From: Reticulascus tulasneorum | Taxonomy: Eukaryota > Ascomycota > Sordariomycetes > Glomerellales > Reticulascaceae | Reading direction: 5' to 3' | Assembly (NCBI GenBank): GCA_001557505.1 | Contig: LSAX01000005.1 | Span: 3,596,001 to 3,660,000, forward strand | DNA: 64,000 nucleotides | The notes under the pieces: model-generated | Database searches by the model: none | The model's input: the letters and a program-made list of their open reading frames with translations, nothing else | Told to the model about the DNA's origin: nothing | Translations under genes and position numbers: made by a program | In this document: positions 1,975-38,404 of the stretch, in pieces | Layout of the letters: every line of letters starts with the position of its first letter | How positions within the stretch are numbered: the stretch's first letter is position 1

Positions 1975-3808
1975 ATGTCGAGTCACAGCTTCAAAGCGTA
2001 TCGGTACCAGCCCCTAAGCACTGCATCAAAGCAGATTCGTGTATTCGTTCTTCTACCAGGGCGTTGGGATTCGGCAATTGAGTGCAGAATCAAGGTCCAA
2101 GACTGGGACGACCGGCCGAAATATGATGCCCCATCTTACGCATGGGGTTATGCGAATGATACCAAATAAATTAATGCCGATAGCACCGCTCTGACAATAA
2201 CCGCAAGCCTGGAGATTGCACTCCGATATCTCCGCCATGAAACGGAGGCCAGGGTCTTATGGGCTGATGCCGTTTGCATTTACCAGTCTAATTTTGCAGA
2301 GAAGTCTTCCCAGCTCGAAATCATGTACGACACATACTCGTCATCCATAAGAGTTTTGGCATGGGTTGGTGAAAGCGAGGAAGACAGCGACAGTGCTATT
2401 ACTCTGATGGAGGATCTGCCTTCTGGCTTGGAAGCAACTGGGTGCTCTGATTGGGATATGATCACGCCGGCACTATTGCTTGAGAAAGCAACCTTTGATG
2501 TTCTTCTCGGGACTGGGAGTGCTTGCGGACATTTTTCTGCCGCCCTTACTGGTCGCGACTATGGGTAATACACGAACTGCATGCTCGAGGGCAGTTTCAA
2601 GAACAGGAGGAGTACCTCCTCATCACATGCGGCAAACGACAAGTAACCAGGAGAATATATCTGACTGTTGTTATTTGCTCATAATGGCGCCGACGGGGGA
2701 GAGTTTCTTCACTCCGGAGCTGGAACGGTTCGTGCGATGCTGGGATCCTCACCGACGAACTCCTGCAATCGATATGTGCCTCCTGTGCGCGTTGAATCCT
2801 GAAACCTCCGGCATGGACCGCGTCGGTCTCGGTCTCCTCCTCAACACAACATCCAAATTCCGTACGACTGACAGCCATGACCAGGTGTATGCCTTACTGG
2901 AGTTATGCGAGAAACGGTATAAAACGTTCATACCAGAGTACAACAAGGAACCAGAGCAAGTATTTCGATCCCTCGTCATGTTTCTTATCCAAGTAGATGG
3001 AAATTTGAATATTCTCCACGGAGACTGAAGCCCAACTGGTACAGCTTCCAGTCATCTTGGACCCCGGATCTGCGTCTCTTCCCTCCGGTTGGTCCGACTG
3101 TTTGGGGTGCCAGGGCATGTTCTGCCAGAAGCAACTTGCACCCAGGGTTCAGTATGACTACTCACGAGCATCTGTTGGTATAGAGGGGCTTCGAGTTGGC
3201 GTCGTCCAGGCTGTCCTTGGGCGCTGGGACAAATTCGTCACGAACGAGATGCAGGAGTTTTGTGCGAGATTAGATGATGGCCAGTTCACGAGGGTATGGA
3301 AAACCATTCTGTTCATGTCGAAAGATGAAATTACCATCATCGGAAATGCAGGGCTACCAAAGTGCAGCTATGAGGAGTCGCGAGCGTTGGCCTGCTTTTA
3401 TGAAAGAACGAGCCCCCGTTCTTCAACCAAATGCCACACCACTACCCCCTGCTGCAAACGATGACGGTTACGAGTTTTCTCAGCGCATCGCGGAGCGAAC
3501 CCAAGAACGATTAGGGATAGAAAAAGAGAAGGTGTGGTCGGTTTTGCATTTGACTCGAGCTGTGATGCAGGACAGATGTTTCTGTGTCACCAACACTGCC
3601 CACTATGCTGTCGCACCTTACGGTACCCAATCCGGGGACATGGTTGTCGTGTTGCTTGGCGGAATGCTTGCCTTTCTGCCTCGGGAAGTAGGCCCAGACT
3701 ATATTAAGACTTGTCGGAGATGCCTTTGTCTCGGATGTGATGAATGGGGAGCTGTTCGAGAACGTGGATATCGATGATCTGCATTTGGAAACCTTTACAC
3801 TCGTCTGA
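1975..3808 (+). pseudogene. Decayed HET-domain (heterokaryon incompatibility) gene
   Basis: All landmarks of a HET protein are present in order but scattered over all three frames. The N-terminal part contains APSYAWGY (usual ALSYVWG). An in-frame TAA follows at 2167-2169. The same frame then continues with LWADAVCIYQSNFAEKSSQL (usual LWiDAiCINQ..EkstQV) and VLAWVG. At about 2526 the match moves to another frame (FFCRPYWSRLWVIHEL), then to a third (SKFRTTDSHDQVYALLEL near 2850). Later come SSWTPDLRL, QSGDMVVVLLGG and, after a further shift near 3710, LVGDAFVSDVMNGELFEN, ending with TGA at 3806-3808. That C-terminal string is typical of HET proteins. One premature stop and at least three frame changes mean that no full protein can be made. 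HET proteins trigger cell death after fusion of incompatible hyphae; this copy is presumably dead. Confidence 0.86.
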
Positions 3809-4140
3809 GGTGCTCGCCTGGGCCTGAGTCATTAGATAACTGCTATAGAGTTCCCTGGCAGGGAAGTCGTCTTTCCTCCTTGAAGCAACACCGCTCAAGG
3901 ACCATGGACAAGAATCAATCGCTTATGGGATATCTGACGCCATGCATAGTGCTGTTGCGAGTCTTTCTGAAATATAGGCAGTAGATGTTGATTAAGATGA
4001 AGAGAAGACGATGTGTCTTCGCACCTCACTCAGAATCATGTAAACGAGACAGTGTGCGGGACGTAGTTAAAAGACGTTAATTCATTATGATTAGCTATGC
4101 AAGCTTGGCTTGAGCATGCATTCGAGTTTCCCGACCATTT
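3809..4140. other. Short intergenic region
   Basis: About 330 bp between the end of the HET relic and the stop codon of the convergent membrane-protein gene. No feature recognised; presumably 3' UTR sequence of the latter. Confidence 0.5.
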
Positions 4141-5238
4141 TCACCTCCGCCGACCCATGTACTGCATATATTGCCTGTCCTTGGAGTCCAGCTCAACCCT
4201 TGGTGCCGCAGCTTCCTGCTGCGTCGGCGTCGGCGGTGGCGGGGGCTGCAGCGGACTATGCATGTCGCTGTAGGTATTGGCAGGCGAATGCCACTGCGCT
4301 TCCATCTCGTATACGGACTGTTGCTCCTTCATAGCTGGGTCGAAATGTGAGTCCGGGGACTGTATACTCGGGCTCTTCCCGGCGGCGCCGAAGAGACCCT
4401 CGCTCGACCCCCGACCTGATGTTGCGGAGGGTTTTGCCCGCGTCAGCGCCAGGTGCCGCCTCCAGATGACCCATGCGGCGATGCCCGCAATGGTGAGCGC
4501 CCCCACAACGGCGCAGATGATCCCGATGAGAGCGCCCGTCGACAGACCTGACTCCGAGGAGCCTTTGTTTTGTGTCGCACTGCTGTTCGTCGCTGTTGGC
4601 GACGGCGACGCGGACGGGGAAGCCGTTGGTGTCGATGCTGTAGATAGTGAGCCTCTGAACTCTAATTTGCAGTGAAAGATGTAATGATATGTCGGGTTAT
4701 CCAAGTCAAAAATGCCACTAGTGTGAACATCGATGTGCCGAATACGCAGGGCAGAGACAGCGGAATATATTAGCAACTTACTGGGAGCTGGCCGGTGGTC
4801 GCAGTCATAGACTTGCGAGCAGCTTAGACCGTCGTACTGGTACAGGTTCAGGAAGTACATCTGCCAGCAGCTGAAGTCGCCGTAGCCGTTATTTCCTATC
4901 CCGGCATATTCGCCCTCTTTGACCACCGGGCCTAACTTCGCTGTGAATGTCACGCCGGTACCGGTGAAAAGAGCTTTGGTGCTGCCGCCGGCCCATATCC
5001 GCGCCTGGTTTTGCGTGGTGCTCACGACGGCGACGTCCTGAGGTGATGTGTCCGGTGTGCCCGGGAAGTAGGCCATCTGCGACGACATGGCGCCGGTGAG
5101 GTCGTCCCTGCAGTCGGCAAGTATAACATGCTCGGGGTCGTTGCGGGATTGCAGGCGAGAAGAAGGTCTAGATACACTAGCAGCCGTGGCACATGACGGA
5201 AGGGTCAATAGAGCCCCGATAAGGATGATGCTGCGCAT
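4141..5238 (-). CDS. Secretory single-pass membrane protein with Ser/Thr-rich stalk and cytosolic tail
   Basis: Read unspliced from M at 5238, this is 365 aa. It has a signal peptide (RSIILIGALLTLPSCATA), an extracellular region of about 170 residues with several Cys (DFSCWQMYF, GLSCSQVYDCDHR), a Ser/Thr/Pro stalk, one membrane segment (ALIGIICAVVGALTIAGIAA) followed by WRRH, and a polar tail with PPPPP. The layout resembles fungal wall-stress-sensor-like proteins, but no named domain was recognised. A 120-nt segment at 4781-4662 begins GTAAGT and ends TTAG and is a multiple of three, so it could be an intron removed without changing the frame, joining DCDHRPAP to FRGSLSTAS. An upstream in-frame ATG at 5271 is less likely because the hydrophobic leader begins at 5238. 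Product real with good confidence; function unknown. Confidence 0.72.
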   Translation of the reverse strand: MRSIILIGALLTLPSCATAASVSRPSSRLQSRNDPEHVILADCRDDLTGAMSSQMAYFPGTPDTSPQDVAVVSTTQNQARIWAGGSTKALFTGTGVTFTAKLGPVVKEGEYAGIGNNGYGDFSCWQMYFLNLYQYDGLSCSQVYDCDHRPAPSKLLIYSAVSALRIRHIDVHTSGIFDLDNPTYHYIFHCKLEFRGSLSTASTPTASPSASPSPTATNSSATQNKGSSESGLSTGALIGIICAVVGALTIAGIAAWVIWRRHLALTRAKPSATSGRGSSEGLFGAAGKSPSIQSPDSHFDPAMKEQQSVYEMEAQWHSPANTYSDMHSPLQPPPPPTPTQQEAAAPRVELDSKDRQYMQYMGRRR

Positions 5239-6422: not shown

Positions 6423-8458
6423 CTACCCCAATGGGGTCAAATGCATCTCTTTCAGCTGTTCCCTGAGCTGCTGCAGTCCTGATACCACATCCTCCAGGAA
6501 CCGCCGCTGCAAGTCTTCGTTATCCAGATCAGTTTCTCCCAGCCCAAAGTCGCAGCCAAGACACTTTTTGATGATCTTGGGGTAGGTTAGCCCCATCTGG
6601 TTGACGAGCAGCTGCGCTAGCTTCTCTGCGACCTTGTAATCCGACTGCGCCTCCCCTGCCGCCGTTGGCGCCTTCGCCAAGCTCTGCTTCAGCTCATGCC
6701 ATGGTTGCCCGTAGCCGATCTCTAGCAAGAGGATCCCGAAGTTAAACAGCAGCTTGTTCCGGGCCTCCGTGAAATCCGCTACCTTCATATCGCGGCGCCG
6801 CGACGCCGCCCCGTCCAAGGGTAGCTTGATGGCAGAGCCGGCGCGCGCCTTCCCTTTAGTCCCTGTGCTCTCTAGACGCGCCATGAAATATGGTCCTCTC
6901 AAGTGAACCACGGAGGCGGACGAATCGGCTGGGTTGAAGTACCGCACATTTTGTCCAAGGTTTGTGGGGACTAGCCACGGAGTCGAGTAGAACTGCATGA
7001 TGCCTTCGGCCACGTTGCCCGCCAGCTCAATTAGTACCGGGCGTGAGAGCGAGCGCAGAATAGGCTCCTCGGCGATCCACTGGATGAGGTCGGAGAGGGA
7101 TTGCGACGTGCCCAGCGTGGCCTGGGGTGCCGGGGGAATGCAGAACCACTGTGCATGGGGACCTCTCCACGATCCCAGCAAAGATCGTCCCATGCAGTCT
7201 ATCATTGCGTCGTGGAAACTCTTGCAAAAGTCGTCGACGAGTGACAAGTCGGAGATTGAATTTGCAGTGGCGGTACTCTCAACGTAGAGACCAGCGAGAG
7301 CCTTCGTGACATTCGGCGGTTGGAGGATGGGTGCTGCCGGCCCGGGCTGCTGCTGTCTGCCCTTTCGGAAGCTCTTGAGCAGGTTGCTAACCCTTGACTT
7401 CGCAGTGCTCGGAGTTGCGAGCTTGAACCGCTCCGCATTGGTTTCGAGGATGGTGGCAAGCTGCTGCACGGCTGCGCTCTCTTGTTCGACTTCGACGGCC
7501 GTCGCCGCATCTTCGTCGTCCGATTCGCAGGCTTGTTCGATTTCGAGCCGGAGCGGCTCCTTGGATGCATAGGACGAGCCATCGTGCGTGATGGAGAGCT
7601 CGCAGGTGATGTATTGAGCATTGGACGCTTTGCTCTTGCCTTTACCAGAATCGCCATCGAGGATGCGCACGTCGAAAGAGTGGCAGCGATGAGACGAGCA
7701 CATCCATTGCACTTGAAGGGTCGAGTATAAAGCTTTGGATGCATACCGGGCCCGGTAGTATCTCTGCAACATGTTGAGGCTCCGCGCCGATTTTCGGCCG
7801 ATGGCGACATCGTCCTTGTGCTCGTTAAGAATCTCTTGTAGCGCCCTTGTGATTTGCTCGGTGATTAGTCCAAAGTCTCTATTGTAATCCCGCAGCTCCT
7901 CGATAGCCTTTCCTATCTGCGGCTTGTTTAATCCAAGTTTGAAGCGAGTTCTGACGTGCTTCAGCCACTCCGAGGCGCCCATTTTCTGCTTGTAGGTTAG
8001 CTATGTCATTCTCAAGTGTCGTCGATGCATGGACTTGCGTCTTGCTTCTCTCCCACCTCGGCCCGAAACGCCTCGGATTGGAGGCAGAGCAACTGCAGTG
8101 TGTTCTGTATTTGCTCTGCTGTTTGACGACATGCGACAAAGGATTCATCGAGCGCGTCGACTCGGCGCTCATAGACAGATGCCATGACTAAGTCCTGCCT
8201 TGCCGCCGGTGATGTGGGCTGGTTCATCACATCCTGCACCTTGATTCTGTCCTTCGTTATCGCAGTGAGTAGGTTGATGGCATTGTTGCGGAAGATGGTT
8301 CGCTGGGCGCTAAGCTTCGCATCTAATATGAGAACCTCCCTTGGATATTGCTTGAAGACTGAGAACACTTCGAACACTCGTCCTGAGCGATCGTAGGTCT
8401 CGAGAGCTATGGGCACCGAGGCGAGGACGGTGCCTATGATAAATTCAATCCCGCTCAT
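6423..8458 (-). CDS. DUF7580-type fungal protein with kinase-like C-terminus
   Basis: Two exons, 8458-8057 and 7985-6423. The 71-bp intron starts GTGGGA and ends CAG, with a GCTAAC branch point. The product is about 654 aa. The N-terminus (MSGIEFIIGTVLASVPIALE, then FKQYPREVLILDAKLSAQR) matches the helical start of the fungal DUF7580 family, which begins with a hydrophobic helix and a helical bundle. The C-terminus (NKLLFNFGILLLEIGYGQPW ... YPKIIKKCLGCDFGLGETDL ... LEDVVSGLQQL) matches the kinase-fold-like end typical of that family. No protein-kinase catalytic motifs are seen, so it is unlikely to be an active kinase. Such proteins recur near incompatibility and NLR-type genes in fungi, but their function is not established. 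The gene is divergent from the C2H2-PP1 fusion with 370 bp between start codons, so a shared promoter is possible. Family assignment rests on memory of the pattern. Confidence 0.75.
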
Positions 8459-8828
8459 CCTTGCGTTGTTGAATCCCCCCCTTCCTACGTAGAATACGAT
8501 TCCCTCGGAAATCTAACAGACGCGAAACCTTCGAGGTGAAGACACGGATCAAAGGTCATCTTCTCTCCCGGTCAATTGGGAGGTTTGAGGTGCGGGGATT
8601 TCCAAATCTGTGAGGCGGTTTCTCCCTTCAGCTACTGGTCGTCCAATACATACCCATGATTTGATGTGTGGCTCTCAGCCGCACCACATATTGGACACCG
8701 AAATGTGCCACAAGAACTTCCCCGCACTCCCCCAGCTCAACTGGCTCATCCAGCGAGGGTGCTCGAGCAACGTCGTCAGTTTCAACGTTTCTGAATGATA
8801 TCACCCCGTATGGCGAAGTGATCGTGCC
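8459..8828. promoter_or_regulatory. Divergent promoter region between DUF7580-type and C2H2-PP1 genes
   Basis: 370 bp between two divergent start codons. A role as a shared promoter is inferred from position only; no defined element was recognised. Confidence 0.4.
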
Positions 8829-11563
8829 ATGTCCTTGTCCTTTCTTAGTTGGCGGGATGTTGAGGGCTGGGTGCCGGAGCCTGCGCCGTCAAAGGGAGGG
8901 GCCTGCTTTGTTGCTAAGCTCTTCGTCGCAATCAATCGAACGATGGCTGCACTTGCGAGTGTGCTATCCAAGACTGATGACAACGTACAAAGGAGATGCC
9001 GTAATGAGTCTGAGCGGTTCTTTCTTTGGGGCCAGGGCCTGTCAATTGTTGACGGCGATCTGGACGAGGTCCTGGCGTACTCCAAAGAGCTTCACTTCCG
9101 GGTCCTATCTCTTCTCCTGCGTCTCGGAACTGTGACCCTCCAGGGGCTATCTCGGACACCAGCTTCACTGTCCCAGGCTTTGAAGGAGCAATGTGACGAG
9201 CTACGAACATTGCTAGACACGACGGAGGCCATGCTCCAAGAACCGGAGCCCGATGGCACTGCGAGGTCATATTCGCCGTCCAATTCTGATGTCTCTGACT
9301 ATGAGGCAACGGAGATTGTGGAAGAAATTTTCATCTACGTCGACTGTCTACTAGATCTCTCCTCATCCCTGGATAACCCAGCCTTGGATATCCAGGTGGA
9401 GGGATCCGACGAGCCTCTGACGCAGCCCAGGGAAACATTCCATGTGTCTTCCGAAGAAGCGTTGATCTATTGTCGAAAGCTTCGGGACCGCTTTGAAGCT
9501 CTACCTAAATATCTTGCAGAACGATTAGCCGAGGCAAATGTCATCAGAGCCGCCGAGCTCCGCGAATTGCGATCTCGTCCTACCAAGCATGATGCTCCTA
9601 TCGGCGACGATTTCACGGAAAGTCTCTTCTCAACTACGAATCCCCGGCTCACCGAAACAACGAAGTCGACAGCCCCTTCAACTTCGTATATTGTGGAGTC
9701 ATCCAGAAGGCGGTCAAAGGACTCGTTCGAGGACAATGCATCGGAGGCGACCTTTGCTTCCTTTTCCACCACGATGTCCGCGACAAGCATGGGCCGCCCC
9801 CGGGTTCCCCCATTACCCAGCGTTCAGTGGAACGGCTTCACCTGTCCTTTTTGCTTCGTCCATGTCGCGAATGTCAAGACTAGAACAGAGTGGAAGTATG
9901 CGATCACCTGAATGCCCTTCCGAGCCTTGCTGATTAGTGCAGGAAACATGTCTTTGAGGATCTCAGGCCGTACGTATGTACCATCGAAGATTGCAAAGAG
10001 GGGGCCACGCTGTACAACCACAGCGGGGCCTGGGGTCGTCACGAAGCTTCCCATCCATCGCCGGGCTCTAGATCGTCCGAGTGCCCTTTCTGCGCTGCTG
10101 TTTATGTACAACGGGGTGTCGCTTACTACAAGCACGTGTCGGCCCATCTCCGAGAAGTCTCGTTGTCCGTCCTGCCACAGCCGGCCGGCGATGACGACGA
10201 AGGTTTCGACACAGATAACAGCACCCCATTATCATCCTCTTCGATTGCAGAAGCAGTGAATCTAGGGACTCACGTTCACCGGAAGCTCGGAGAAGATCCG
10301 CTCTCTCCAGAAATTGAGGCTGGAGGTGGCCAAGATCTACTGGTACCGGGGACTGACCCCGTGGATACGGAGCCTGGTCCAGCTACTGACAGTGGTGAGA
10401 AGACTACTGGCGCCGAACCGACCACAAGTTCTGTTGAGCCCGCTACTCAGGCAGCCGGCGGAAGTACAAGCAACGCAGAAGATATCGATCTGGACGCGAT
10501 CATAGACCTTCTCTTGGAGGTCAGAGGTTCCAGGCCCGGGAAGCAAGTTCAACTTCTCCAATCGGAAATACGGTACCTCTGTACCAAAAGCAGAGAGGCT
10601 TTTATTTCGCAGCCGATACTGCTAGAACTACAGGCTCCCATCAAGGTGAGATAAAGTCAATTTTCCGAATTTAGTGTGCTGCGGCAGCTGATATTGCTAG
10701 ATTGTGGGCGATCTTCACGGCCAGTACTACGACCTGCTCCGGAGCTTCGAGTACGGCGGATTTCCACCTGAGGCGAACTATCTTTTCTTGGGTAACTATG
10801 TGGACCACGGCAAGCAGTCGATAGAGACAATCTGCTTGATCCTCGCCTACAAGATAAAGTATCCTGAAAACTTCTTCCCTTTGCGAGGAAACCACGAGTG
10901 CGCCTCGATAAACCGGATTGAAGGATTTTACGACGAATGCAAGCGGCGATACGACATAAGGCTGTGGAAAATGTTCACTGACACGTTCAATTGCATGCCT
11001 GTTGCAGCCATCATTGATGAAAAGGTGTTCTGTACTCACGGAGGGTTGAGTCCGGATTTGAACTCCATGGAGCAAATTCGACGTATCATGCGACCGACTG
11101 ATGTAGGTCATATATCATTACTCTTGATGCAGTCGCTAACACGCTGCAATAGATACCTGATGTTGGGCTCCTATGCGACCTGCTGTGGAGCGACCCTGAC
11201 AAGGATATTACCGGATGGTCTGAGAACGATCGCGGCGTCTCGTTCACCTTTGGACCAGCTGTGGTGTCCCGGTTCCTGGAGAAGCACGACTTGGATCTTA
11301 TTGTCAGAGGGCACCAGGTCGTGGAAGACGGATACGAGTTCTTTTCTATGCGGCAGCTCGTCACGGTCTGGGGCGCACCAAACTACAAAGGCGAGTATGA
11401 TAACGCTGCCGCGATGATGAGCATCGATGAGAGCCTCTTGTGCTCGTTCCAGGTACATCCTTCGTGCCCAACTGTTCGGTGAGAGACAGAGTCACTAATA
11501 TCGATTGCGCCATGCTAGCTTCTAAAACCTGCGGAAAAAAGACAGAGATTCGGGCGTCGATAG
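8829..11563 (+). CDS. Fusion of a fungal C2H2-type protein with a protein phosphatase 1 domain (probable pseudophosphatase)
   Basis: Five exons (8829-9895, 9943-10645, 10701-11102, 11153-11452, 11519-11563) with introns of 47-66 bp join in one frame to 838 aa. Residues 1-340 are a helical region ([40 protein letters not shown]) typical of fungal C2H2-type proteins. [20 protein letters not shown] and ECPFC follow over roughly residues 340-420 as Cys/His motifs. After an acidic/Ser linker a complete PP1 domain begins near residue 536 ([15 protein letters not shown]). GDLHGQ (D594, H596), RGNHE (N654, H655), HGG (H703), ENDRG and H778 are kept. The second metal motif, normally GDYVDRG, reads GNYVDHG (N622, H626). 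RAHQ is RGHQ, and the Cys of NYCGE is Lys803. These changes hit a metal-bridging Asp and a phosphate-binding Arg, so activity is probably lost while the docking surface (LLCSF) is kept. The start codon is the least certain element. Confidence 0.85.
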
Positions 11564-33755: not shown

Positions 33756-36700
33756 ATGTCCGAGGGATCCTGCCCAGTCTCAGGCTCCTTGGGAGGAAGA
33801 TGTTTGGCCGGCGCAGCTGCGACAGGGAAACAGGATAGGACTAGCAGCCGCATGGGACCTCGAGGGTGTTCTTTTTCCGGGTTCACTCAGCCAGGCGATA
33901 TCCACGCAGCGTTCGATGTATGTCTCGTATTGATAATCAGTTGGTGGGAATCTGTTAACACGCGCTAGATCGCCCGAGGCGTAGATGCGGAAGAATGGCT
34001 CCAGATGAGGTAACACACGACGGGAAGCTATGTCAGGAGCCACGCTGATACTGAATTGCAGAGAGCGTGTGTCCATCAATCAGATTCTATACTCTAATAT
34101 CCCATCGGTGCAAGAGATCGACTCGGTCAAAAGCCAAGTCGAGCTGGACGCATTCAGCGCTAACGAACAGGATCTTCTTGCTGTGGCTCTAGGAGCACCA
34201 GCACGGCAAGTGATGCTGAGAGCAGAACAGATAGGTCCTCAGACAGGCTGGCGTGACGGCTACCTCAGTATGGAGCATGGGTTCTGCCCCGGAGACTACG
34301 ACGAAGCGGCTGGCGCTCTTGCTAAGTCACCAGGCCGCATATGGTCTGATCTTTGTGAGCGAATGCCCGGATGTGTAGCGCGTGGGCGTGTTCGAGATGC
34401 TGTCGCTACATTACCAATCGTGGAAGGCACTGAGGACATCATCCCAGACCAGGCGCTTTGGGCCTCATTGGTGGCATTAGGTCTACTTTGTTCAATATAT
34501 CGCTTCGAGCATAAATATGACGGCAATGACGGGGTTCACGTTTCCGCTAACCCAAAAAGATTCGAACCGAGCTGCGAGATGGGCGATCATCTTGGCGAAG
34601 AACTAGTCGGCATTCCACTCAGCATTGCCCTTCCGTATTTTCAAGTCTCTCGTCGCATGGGCCGAATACTGCCGCATCTGACGTTCGTCGACCAGTCATC
34701 ATACAACCTTAAGATCAAAGACCTCACTTCAACTTCCCCATACGTCGCCCGCTTCGATAATATCGAGCTGCGCTGGCCCATGTTTGGGGAGAGGGCCGAA
34801 GTGGCATTTCTGAAGGGCGTTGCGGACACATCTGGTCGGCATCATTCTTCTTGCGTTCCTTGACCTGGTGCTGACTATACTCAGCTTCATTCCAGCACGG
34901 GCCGGACGCTATTGCTGCTTGCCAGGAGCACGTAATGAATAGAAATGTTGAAGGGCTGCTCCGCGAAATGATCCGTCTCAAAGAGATTCTTGAGCGCATG
35001 CCTAATGCCTTTCACTCAATTTCAACCAATCCCAGCGCAGGCGAGAACTACGTGCCTGTCCAGCAATGGGTTCGCTGGGCCAAGTTTTCGGCCCCCCTCT
35101 CCCGGCGTTGTCCTGCATCTTCGGGCCTGCAGTTCCCGCCGTACCTAGTTATGGACGCATTTCTGGGACGCAAAAAGTAAGTATAGTCGTAGGTTTTAGT
35201 GCTATGTCTGTGTGATGTCCGGATCACACTCCTGGCATATACTGTCTCGTTACCTAGCCATTCTGACTGCTCAACCATAGGTATACGTCTTTTCTTGGCG
35301 CGGAAGGGGTCCACCTCCGGGCCTGGATGCCCTCCAATCTTCGGGCCTTTATCGCAGCAGTGGAATACCACTATCGAATTCCTGAGTTTGTTCAGCAGTC
35401 TAACGATCCTCGACTAATGGGTGTACTAGACGGCATCGTCGAAGCCTACACTGGCGAACGCGGCTTTATGGGAGCACATCGATATAAGGTTTTCGGGATA
35501 CTAGAGGTCGCGGCCAAGACAGGTCGAACGGAGACGAACGGCTCGTCCGGCTCCGGGGACGCGACCCGCCCGTGGGAGCAGACCCACCACCAATTCTCTG
35601 AAGCGATGAAGGAACGCCTCGAGCCATACCGTGGAAGCCTCTCCGCGGTCGAGCCTCATCAAATGCGCGGCACGTTTGAAGAATGTCGTTACATCGCCCG
35701 CATCCAGGAAAGGTCGTTTGTCGATTGTGATCCTTCGCGCTCAATCGCCCTCGTCTCTCTCGATATCCGGGATACGGGAATCACGTTCGCCCCCGGAGAC
35801 CGCCTGGCCGTTATGCCATTGAACAGTTGGGAAGAGTGTGTCAAAGTCGCCGCCGCCCTAGGTTTGGAAGACCATGTTGATGCATCGATAGAGGTTACGG
35901 GCGCATGGGCCCGCTTCGAGCTTCATTTAGGCTCCGTCAGGAGAACGGCGACCCCGAAACTTACCGTGAGGGATATTCTACGACGCGGTCATCTGGCGCC
36001 GATCACGAAGTCTCTGGCCCTCAAAATCCATGGTCTCCTCCAAGCCTCATCTAATACGGTCCTCCAAGTCCTGGCTACGGATGAATGGCCTGTTCGTGGC
36101 TCCCTCGGCGACCTGCTGCAGGATGCGGTCGTGGATACGCCCTCCCAGATCTGGGATAAAGCCTTCGGTCTGGAAGACCTGTCCTGGTTGGCCGAACTTA
36201 TGCCTCTCGAAGTGCCTCGCACTTACTCGATCGCCAATTATGCTCACGAACTGCTGCCGAGCGCCATCGACCTAGCCGTCTCTCGCGCGGAATATAAACT
36301 TTGTTCTACATTTGCCAAAGGCTCAGATATCTCACGCGCAGGGGGCGCAAGTGGCTTTCTTAATCCTCATGTGCTGTCCGGTGATGTCGACTCCGATGAC
36401 GAAATACTCATTGGCATCTCTCGCCCCGTGGCATTTCACCTCCCACTGGACCCGATGGCTCCTTGTGCATTCTTCGCCGGGGGCAGCGGCATAGCTCCAT
36501 TCCGAAGCTTCTGGCAGGCCCGTCTCGCTGCCAGCGGCCTATCCGGTGGCAAGAACACCCTCTACCTCGGAGTGCAGTCACGCGAGAAATTTTGCTTTGA
36601 AGAGGAACTCCGAGATTACGTCAACGCTGACTTCATGGAGGTGCATGTCGCCTTCTCACGAGATTCGCGTGGTCTCGCCTACAATGGCCGCAATCTCGTC

Positions 36701-36760
36701 GATACCGTGTACCCCGATCCACATGCGCGACCCTGGGCGGTGCCCGGTGTGCAACGCTAG
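33756..36760 (+). CDS. IDO/PrnB-like heme domain fused to FAD/NADPH reductase (3' end disrupted)
   Basis: Five exons (33756-33917, 33969-34009, 34062-34834, 34885-35176, 35281-36760) join in frame to 915 aa; introns are 50-104 bp and the 34835 donor (GTCGGC) is weak. Residues 1 to about 540 resemble the indoleamine-dioxygenase/PrnB superfamily of heme proteins, with a candidate proximal His489 in GERGFMGAHRYKVFG. A P450-reductase-type module follows: VSLDIRDTGITFAPGDRLAV, the FAD motif RTYSIAN at 736-742 and the NADPH motif AGGSGIAPFRSFW near 823. No flavodoxin/FMN domain is present. The frame ends at TAG 36758-36760 with unrelated residues (DPHARPWAVPGVQR), because the DNA encoding the NADPH-domain end is inverted from about 36704. 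A truncated protein could be made, but without the end of the NADPH site it is probably not functional. The family name is an inference from motifs. Confidence 0.78.
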
Positions 36761-36967
36761 CTGCGAGTGCGGGATTGTTGGCAAGTTACACGGGAGAGAC
36801 TTTGGCGTCATGAAGACGTCGAGCATAAAGCGCCGTTCTGCAAAGGCCTTATTAACAATAACGTCAACGCCTTCTTCTGTTACCGAACGGTAATTGTAAA
36901 TTGCCTTCCGGATCCCGTTCATGACAGAATCAAAGACAGCAACAGACCCACACACGTACAGGAACTC
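36704..36967 (-). pseudogene. Inverted fragment encoding the missing end of the NADPH reductase domain
   Basis: On the minus strand this 264-bp segment reads FLYVCGSVAVFDSVMNGIRK ... FAERRFMLDVFMTPK ... ALHTG ... RMWIGVHG. The YVCGS and ERRFMLDVF strings are what is expected at the C-terminus of a P450-reductase-like NADPH domain, exactly the part missing from the plus-strand gene. It runs opposite to the host exon and matches end on both sides at about 36704 and 36967. The last residues (MWIGVHG) resemble the start of a cytochrome b5 module, the rest of which is not seen. Inversion with loss of a little DNA at each edge is the simplest reading. Confidence 0.75.
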
Positions 36968-38404
36968 GTGCTCAAACTATCCTTCGGTCTTGCCAACGCC
37001 AGCGAGCCAGGAGGTGACACCAAGCTACCAGACGTTCTGGGGACAGTCGCCCGGGCTAAGACGAGCCTCGATGCTGCGGCTTGCACGAAAGAGGTTGCTC
37101 TCATCGGTCAGTTCGTCTGTGACGCCGACGCGTCCTTGCGTTTCCAAGAACGAGGCGTTTCCGCATATGCCGCGAAGAGCGTAGAGCTGGACATCGCCTT
37201 GCTCGAGGACCTCCGCAGGACGGCCTGCGCCGGCTTGGATGCATTCGACAGCATCACAAGCTCCTTGAGTTCACCTGGTGACAACGCAGATCCTGATGCA
37301 GATGATGCCCTGATTGCTGCCCTCTCGTGTTTCCTCCTGCAGAGCCTTGAGCGCATGGCCTGTCGTCTGGCGATTTTCTACGCGCAGCTGTCGCAGTGCT
37401 CTGTATACCAGCCTATGCTGGAGCGTAATCCAGCCCGTACGCGCTGGGCTCTGGTACGACGACGCATACGTGACGGTAGTCTCTTTGTGCTTGCTAACAA
37501 CGCCGAGCTCGACGAGACGCTAGAGCACCCGCCATCTTATTTTATGTCACGAACGAACCCATATCAAGCCATTGATTTCGACAGCGTCATGACACAGGTA
37601 AAAGCTAGCTTGCAAGCTGGGTCTGTCAGGTCAGGAATGGTAGCCAGCGTTGTGCAGCAGCCGCTTACACTCAATGCTGTGCACCAAGCCCGTGGACGGA
37701 GCACCGGAAATATCAGCGCATTGGCAAATCAAGAGAATGCCAGCGCGCTGCGGGCTATGAACAGCTTCGTTGAGACTAACGGTCGTGCTATCCGGCGGCT
37801 GAGTAGAATGCCGTCTGCGGGTTTGAATTTCGAAGAATGGCAGCAAGGTGTGCTCGGGCACTCGCACGACAGTTTCCCTTCTCCCCAGGAGAGAAACGAG
37901 ATTGCGATGGAGGCAGTTCTGGGAAATATGAAGGGCATGAGCGCTCTCCCGACGCCGCCTTCGAGTCGTGGGTCCAGCCGCTCACCCACCGATCATAGCC
38001 AGGTCATCTCCATGCATGTGGCACACGGGCGCAAGCTATCGGCCGAGGCGCTGCTTGCCAAGCTGAACCAACCCAGGGTTGTGTCTCTCAGTCGTGTCCC
38101 AGCCAGGCCAGTCCACTATCCAGTTATCGATGCTCATGCACACACAACGGTCAGCCCGATGATAGGTCACTTAAACACTCGTCCACGCGGTGGCAGCGTT
38201 ATTACGTCCAACAGCGCAGTGATTTCGGCGAATCTGGGGCGGGCGCAGTCAGTAAATGGGATGGGCGTCTCGTCGACGGATATAGCGAGGAGCGGGGTGA
38301 GAGAGGACGTCCACAGGTCGAAGCCGTCGACGAGCTCGCTGCGGTCATTAAAACTCAGGAGTGTCATAGAGCAGAGTGGGGGGAGAACTGTGCCAACGTT
38401 TTGA
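36968..38404 (+). pseudogene. 3' remnant of the IDO-reductase fusion gene (helical tail region)
   Basis: An open frame of about 480 codons in the same frame as the upstream fusion gene, resuming just after the inverted fragment. It starts ELVLKLSFGLANASEPGG and continues with KLPDVLGTVARAKTSLDAA, CTKEVALIGQFVCDADA, LRFQERGVSAYAAKSVELD and LERNPARTRWALVRRR, then a low-complexity Ser-rich tail ending at 38404. The dense, compositionally normal first 240 residues argue for genuine coding descent. No plausible start lies at its beginning. Either it is an orphaned 3' end, or an intron (for example GTGTAC at 36707 to ACAG at 36961, 255 nt) removes the inverted piece and rejoins it in frame. Function of this tail is unknown. 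Confidence 0.6.

Follow-up and report, generated by a model that had tools for sequence, protein, structure and literature searches.

PP1 is among the most conserved of enzymes, and the question raised by one gene of Reticulascus tulasneorum is why a complete PP1 domain with a rebuilt active site should sit behind a helical and C2H2 zinc-finger region. The gene lies in the 64,000-nucleotide stretch of DNA analysed here (contig LSAX01000005.1, positions 3,596,001 to 3,660,000; hereafter the window), and similar fusions recur in other fungi. Its product is strongly supported by sequence comparison as a pseudophosphatase of the PP1 type, and the scaffold that carries it belongs to a helical and C2H2 family associated with NLR proteins. 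From this we infer the inactivity, the bait role and the ligand, and we consider the odds about even that a conserved pseudophosphatase belongs here to a paired recognition system, in which it would be a bait (integrated decoy) or a competitor.

The fusion gene and its PP1 domain

Window positions 8829-11563 on the forward strand give a single open frame of 838 amino acids (aa) in five exons, ending at a TAG stop and interrupted by introns of 47, 55, 50 and 66 bases that are all GT..AG (Table 1), in agreement with an earlier sequence-only reading of this DNA. That reading also placed a complete PP1 domain behind the helical/C2H2 region, and this too holds: Pfam finds STPPase_N at residues 539-586 and Metallophos at 588-781, both far over cut-off, and the PP1 part aligns with yeast Glc7 (7qwj) over residues 2-299 of 305 (E 1.3e-174), as expected of a member of the PP1/PPP family by descent. 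Exon 1 matches the profile of the helical part of the scaffold family at E 9e-125; Pfam matches the C2H2 part only below threshold (zf-Di19, E 0.0087).

The intron at 10646-10700 had been proposed as the key to the fusion. The fusion stands, but the intron is not its proof, because the zinc fingers, the linker and the first PP1 helices form one continuous exon 2 and the join is independent of any splice call. Exon structures do vary among the automatic models of relatives, as might be expected if two adjacent genes had been wrongly joined, but the presence of C2H2 part, linker and PP1 N-terminus together in exon 2, and the identical join in ten further database models, make such an artefact exceedingly improbable and support a real fusion.

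In PP1, D92 bridges both metals, R96 binds phosphate and His248 is a metal ligand. The fusion domain has D92N, R96H, Y134E, A247G and C273K (PP1 numbering). Reading codon by codon confirms the motifs GNYVDHG, RGHQ and NYKGE as originally described, with two amendments to the list of active-site changes: D92N, R96H and C273K hold, whereas RGHQ in place of RAHQ still retains His248, and Y134E had been missed. The PP1 match list behind these comparisons comprised the best 120 of 4241 matches, and the site tables hold 109 rows, excluding Drosophila P0070-P0092 except P0072 and rows with fewer than 230 aligned positions except P0129. Where D92 and R96 are kept, site 134 is Tyr in 92/92 rows and site 273 is Cys in 86 of the 89 rows with a letter there. 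An active PP1 has all its metal ligands and the phosphate-binding Arg, which D92N and R96H remove, and the rebuilt site is very probably no longer functional. The combination of lost catalytic residues with purifying selection (below) is that expected of a PPP pseudophosphatase.

The domain could instead still be enzymatic, with a changed use of metals or a changed substrate: N92 would hold one metal, and a basic side chain at position 273 would stand in for R96. D64, H66, D95, N124, H125, H173, R221, H248 and Y272 are all intact in the window gene, residue 273 is basic in 9 of the 13 rows with N92, which could reflect displacement of the lost Arg charge, and migrated catalytic residues are reported for other pseudoenzymes (PMC10211241). 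Against this, several members of the same family have additionally lost D64, H66, D95, N124, R221 or H248, and recombinant PfPPP8, with Asp changed to Asn in the same motif, is reported to be inactive (PMC10317984); we regard the altered enzyme as quite improbable.

The likely source of the domain can be seen in the same genome (42.8 Mb, 35 contigs), which encodes a canonical PP1 (L036, at C35) with GDYVDRG, RAHQ and NYCGE; the comparison called for by the sequence-only reading thus finds the canonical motifs there and the rebuilt ones in the fusion. The fusion domain is 84% identical to this PP1 and has three intron positions in common with it (K^I, D^I and Q^I/L), and the copy was therefore made from DNA rather than from message. 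L036 could yield two C-termini, one of which, FGRR, is found at the end of the fusion, without the intron that precedes it in L036. At about 1697-1805 of the L036 region (G000:C35:1971501-1973700) the canonical protein ends either in YVHGGLGG...SSK, with the last intron retained, or in FGRR, with it spliced. L036 differs from the fusion in being unfused, in having one intron more and in being unaltered at D92, R96, Y134, A247, C273 and other sites.

Over 295 aligned codons the two share 253 identical residues, with a proportion of nonsynonymous differences (pN) of 0.108 and of synonymous differences (pS) of 0.87, which is saturated; these values indicate constraint by strong purifying selection and not decay. 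A decaying duplicate, a pseudogene in the making carried along by the scaffold, would fit some Fusarium and Echria copies, which are very long-branched and have lost many invariant residues. It fits poorly with the intact frame and splice sites, with the low pN and with the maintenance of N92 and of the R96 loss across four orders, and is very improbable.

Related fusions and other rebuilt PP1 domains

The search for the same architecture suggested by the sequence-only reading yielded 10 further proteins besides the window gene, from Rhypophila, Phialemonium, Hypoxylon, Echria, Monosporascus (two) and Fusarium (four); these architecture searches scored only candidates sharing most words. The Rhypophila and Phialemonium fusions are 61% identical to the window protein over the full length. 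Leaving Hypoxylon aside, the members come from Sordariales, Cephalothecales, Xylariales and Hypocreales, so that the fusions span at least four Sordariomycete orders.

Asn92 is present in 10/10 readable fusion rows (11 rows, one gapped there), and Arg96 in 0/10, being replaced by His, Tyr, Phe or Cys; on these losses the pseudophosphatase claim is strongly supported. Because nine readable relatives likewise have Asn92 and no Arg96, a sequencing error at the GNYVDHG codons, a concern attached to the original claim, is unlikely. The two sites change together in the wider set, where 92 of the 107 rows with letters at both keep both residues, 13 have lost both and 2 are mixed. Val245 (10/11), Gly247 (10/11), Trp267 (9/11) and Trp/Phe272 (9/11) are also typical of the fusions, none of which has Cys273 (0/11), and Tyr134 is changed in 7/10 readable fusion members and retained in plant copies. 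A reference set of 87 canonical rows, without the 11 fusions, 4 convergent-change rows and 7 rows that were odd or divergent, has 154 sites with conservation of 97% or more. Relative to these, loss is more frequent at catalytic sites, with P 0.046 for seven members and 0.052 for all.

Trees were built without the 18 active-site columns, the first from 67 of the 109 rows and the second from 42; the alignments A3 and A4 correspond to 53 and 33 chosen sequences. Five slowly evolving fusions group together with support of 94/91, and of 86/88 in the smaller set.

Among the best 120 of 4241 matches, the combination D92N, R96Y and C273R is common to three proteins (P0063, P0100 and P0111), and a plant RING-PP1 protein from Nyssa (P0120) has H66K, R96E and C273R. 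P0063 is an 835-aa protein from a metagenome-assembled genome of the lichen fungus Flavoplaca austrocitrina (Lecanoromycetes), with a HET (heterokaryon incompatibility) domain before PP1, and adds a second fungal protein of the non-self-recognition type in which PP1 has been rebuilt. P0100 is a plant PP1 from Stephania and P0111 a plant kinase-PP1 protein from Erigeron, both with rebuilt active sites. All four are single database proteins, partly automatic models, and resemble the window gene in their rebuilt PP1 sites but differ in having partner domains other than its scaffold. Forcing P0100 and P0111 together with the five slow fusions lowers the log-likelihood (lnL) by 119 (approximately unbiased test, p-AU <1e-40), indicating that these plant proteins arose independently of the fungal fusions. 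P0063 is without the class-typical V245, G247 and W267, and its common origin with the scaffold fusions is not rejected (p-AU 0.88 and 0.48).

The scaffold and its DUF7580 neighbours

In the predicted model of a relative (P0130, mean pLDDT 74) the N-terminal part forms helices between residues 27 and 259, mostly with pLDDT 87-97. PF26082 is assigned by the database to many relatives; our Pfam copy did not return it. Elsewhere the scaffold carries other C-termini, including NB-ARC and TPR in Fusarium P0131, ankyrin in P0137, a protein kinase with Clr5 and Zn-cluster in P0136, and PF17111 in P0182, whose linker resembles the pre-PP1 linker of P0180 and P0181. These last three, all metagenome proteins, have similar exon-2 proteins and a near-identical linker, followed by PP1 or by PF17111 (fungal STAND N-terminal), an arrangement that indicates module exchange. 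In the scaffold tree P0131 groups with the Echria and Rhypophila PP1 fusions, with support (81/90) that is not strong; this grouping would likewise mean exchange of the C-terminal module.

Siblings of the scaffold in the same genome are distant from that of the window (about 31-47% alike in matched parts) and are followed by modules of several kinds: NB-ARC in the open frame of the C2H2 part and TPR in the next frame (L040), NACHT in the C2H2 frame and ankyrin repeats in the next (L042), WD40 repeats (L041), and PHD and Myb in the open frame that follows (L039). The window protein is thus placed in a scaffold family associated with NLRs, and the fungus is NLR-rich, with 77 NACHT matches in 42.8 Mb of the whole genome (G000). 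The window protein is not itself a fungal NLR, since Pfam finds no NACHT or NB-ARC central domain within the 838 aa. As a candidate integrated decoy it does contain a copy of PP1, and its link to immune receptors runs through the scaffold family only.

The fusion gene lies head to head with a gene encoding a DUF7580 protein (Table 1). When the C2H2 part was searched against the whole genome, scaffold loci were identified with confidence at 6 places. At 5 of these a DUF7580 match lies no more than 5 kb away, and the genome has just 13 such matches, one of them under the family cut-off. A random place falls within 5 kb of DUF7580 with a chance of 0.0033, so that five of six would have a probability of about 2e-12, a figure that assumes random places and not clustering of related gene classes, for which a NACHT control stands in. 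None of the 32 metallophosphatase places outside the window (all such places) is near DUF7580, and the one NACHT place of 77 that is near is the scaffold gene L042 itself, from which we conclude that nearness to DUF7580 is not general to NLR-type genes. A borderline scaffold match at C3 (E 0.03), not close to any DUF7580, would make the count 5/7; a scaffold copy at C6 (L044), found only by looking beside DUF7580 genes, was excluded from the five of six.

The start codons of the three head-to-head pairs are 370, 357 and 1197 bp apart, whereas L042 and its DUF7580 gene are in tandem and the DUF7580 gene of L041 lies downstream. In the L044 region (G000:C6:236001-244000) positions 2042-4288 on the reverse strand hold a DUF7580 frame and then a second frame, with the scaffold-type zinc-finger copy adjoining; from its motifs we take the second frame to be subtilase-like. 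At 3371-3571 (forward strand) of another locus (L048, G000:C1:2775001-2783000) there is a weak match to the helical profile (E 6e-4) immediately upstream of a DUF7580 domain, a sign that the scaffold and its DUF7580 partner may have related helical parts. A scan of the divergent stretch for bacterial-type promoters, which is unsuited to fungal DNA, returned nothing. We found no paper on DUF7580 in the open PMC literature, and the gene pairing provides a first context for this family.

Table 1. Positions in the window of the fusion gene, its altered codons and the adjoining DUF7580 gene.
Feature	Position	Strand	Content	Basis or reading
Exon 1	8829..9895	+	N-terminal helical domain and beginning of C2H2 part	open frame, GT..AG splice
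Exon 2	9943..10645	+	remaining C2H2, acidic/Ser-rich linker, ~55 initial PP1 residues	
Exon 3	10701..11102	+	PP1 core: GDLHGQ, GNYVDHG (D92N, R96H), Y134E	
Exon 4	11153..11452	+	PP1 core: RGHQ (A247G), NYKGE (C273K), RVxF-pocket strand	
Exon 5	11519..11563	+	PP1 C-terminus, stop codon	
Rebuilt motif GNYVDHG codons	10794..10808	+	N92 = AAC 10794-10796 (own PP1: GAC); H96 = CAC 10806-10808	
Y134E codon	10920-10922	+		codon reading
G247 codon GGG	11309-11311	+		codon reading
K273 codon AAA	11387-11389	+		codon reading
DUF7580 partner gene	6423..8458	-	exons 8458-8057 and 7985-6423; 654 aa; C-terminal DUF7580, E 4e-11	splice consensus
Divergent stretch between start codons of fusion and DUF7580 genes	8459..8828	.	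370 bp, head to head	

Elsewhere in the window, two long open reading frames lie in the same frame at 35267-38404 (forward strand) with one stop between them; the first has a FAD/NAD-binding match and the second is without a Pfam match.

A possible bait, and comparison with known systems

Taking the ten RVxF-site residues as listed for PP1-ASPP2 (PMC6377682), the window protein keeps 9/10 and seven members jointly keep 67/70. In the predicted model of a relative (P0018) the PP1 part is mostly above pLDDT 85 (68.9 for the whole model), and its ten best PDB matches are all PP1, with TM-scores of 0.97-0.99 by target length. The earlier claim that the protein still docks PP1 partners is accordingly plausible for the window gene, but does not extend to the family in general. 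A search with one simple pattern of the N-terminal parts of the window protein, P0018 and P0099 gave no RVxF-like motif by which they might dock their own PP1 domain.

According to the reading that we prefer, the fusion PP1 domain would be unable to hold both metals and would not dephosphorylate, but would keep its PP1 surface and thereby be a bait for whatever binds or attacks PP1, whether foreign effectors or a non-self partner's regulators. Judging from the family and the gene order, the scaffold and its DUF7580 partner would convert binding into a response. The sequence-only reading had likewise proposed a decoy on a recognition-type N-terminus, and had speculated that it might guard a host phosphatase pathway; the NLR-type siblings, the DUF7580 pairing and the HET-PP1 protein lend the decoy as such indirect support, and it is unproven.

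Several observations weigh against a bait of this kind. The window gene keeps 9/11 catalytic residues, and residual activity is possible for that reason. Four members keep only 5/10, 6/10, 4/10 and 5/9 of the RVxF pocket, a loss of about half that disfavours a single docking role common to all members, and the pocket (6 invariant sites) is not significantly better kept than other invariant sites, with P 0.072 for seven members and 0.33 for all. The fusion protein is without a nucleotide-binding domain. Compared with solved folds, the helical domain has no convincing match in Foldseek (best E 1.5) and scores only at helical-bundle level in a second comparison with VIA; we therefore claim no fold for it, the four-helix bundle of HeLo/MLKL-type executioners included. 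One of the six scaffold loci has no DUF7580 nearby, the roughly 8-10 kb around each DUF7580 place include a scaffold match in only 6 of 13 cases (7/13 have none), and the pairing is known from this one genome. The free tree, moreover, did not unite all of the fusions, the long-branched Fusarium, Hypoxylon and Echria copies falling outside the slow clade. Two origins were considered and taken as a long-branch artefact, as constraining all 11 fusions together raised lnL by 18 above the free search (p-AU 0.90); one origin is thus the simpler reading, though not proven.

The retained pocket and the predicted PP1 fold of P0018 could also point to an endogenous regulator without any role in non-self recognition, an inactive PP1 that titrates or scaffolds the PP1 regulators of the cell as a dominant competitor, much as pseudophosphatases are reported to compete in the manner of STYX (PMC10211241). 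Such a protein would not be expected to have NLR modules on its scaffold siblings or a DUF7580 gene paired with its locus, and the rapid divergence in Fusarium, Hypoxylon and Echria is unlike that of a housekeeping regulator; we consider it rather unlikely.

When PP1 is bound to SDS22, its M1 metal is missing, Tyr134 moves by 10 A and Arg96 by 4 A; SDS22 binds exclusively M1-free PP1, and the H66K variant, which does not bind M1, stays on SDS22 in cells (PMC10776994). The fusion has its metal bridge, Arg96 and Tyr134 all altered together. Either the domain would be a permanent mimic of the metal-poor PP1 state, or, given the importance of R96 and Y134 for binding SDS22, it would be a metal-poor PP1 able to evade the SDS22 trap and remain free as bait; the second option would suit a decoy better.

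A broader view, which we put forward only tentatively as a possibility, is of a two-gene recognition system made up of DUF7580 and a helical-C2H2 sensor with an exchangeable C-terminal module, in which pseudo-PP1 would bait effectors that target PP1, coupled to a general rule by which fungal and plant proteins of immune type disarm PP1 through D92N, R96Y and a basic residue 273. The exchangeable modules would be pseudo-PP1, NB-ARC, NACHT, WD40 and perhaps PHD/Myb, and in other species kinase, ankyrin and PF17111. If the bait reading is true, PP1 would seem to be a contested target in fungi, fungi would have a phosphatase integrated decoy alongside the proposed kinase ones (PMC12258605), and the domain would offer a ready bait with which to find molecules that attack PP1. 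The recurrent D92N/R96Y/C273R swap makes the use of a disarmed PP1 a directly testable question.

Descriptions of PPP-family pseudophosphatases are rare, the accounts we found being of PfPPP8 in 2023 (PMC10317984) and of kinetoplastid candidates in 2007 (PMC2175518). In the open PMC literature we found no paper on a fungal PP1 pseudophosphatase and none on pseudophosphatases as integrated decoys; each of the two classes is known, and their combination is absent from the papers found. PfPPP8, which has homologues in other apicomplexans and is called the first PPP pseudophosphatase by its authors, resembles the fusion in that Asp residues of GDXXDRG are changed to Asn (GNLINRG) and activity was undetectable, but it keeps the Arg, has longer stretches between motifs than active PPPs and is assigned a role at the contractile ring (PMC10317984). 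It is also unlinked to recognition scaffolds, whereas the domain in the fungus has 84% identity with the canonical PP1 of its own genome. The kinetoplastid candidates, PPPs in which catalytic residues are substituted, are similar in having PPP domains predicted to be inactive from sequence; they are described as lineage-specific, diverged PPPs and PP2B-like proteins, rather than a PP1 copy on an immune-type scaffold (PMC2175518). A further parallel is with NLR integrated decoys, among which kinase domains have been proposed in NLRs of Sordariales (PMC12258605). These share with the fusion a copy of a cellular signalling enzyme on an immune-type scaffold, and the head-to-head gene pair corresponds to the sensor/helper layout of plants, a divergent arrangement reported to be rare among Sordariales NLRs in a survey that paired NLR with NLR (PMC12258605). 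The window protein differs in having no nucleotide-binding domain, in that the graft is a phosphatase with a rebuilt site, and in being partnered by a DUF7580 gene rather than an NLR.

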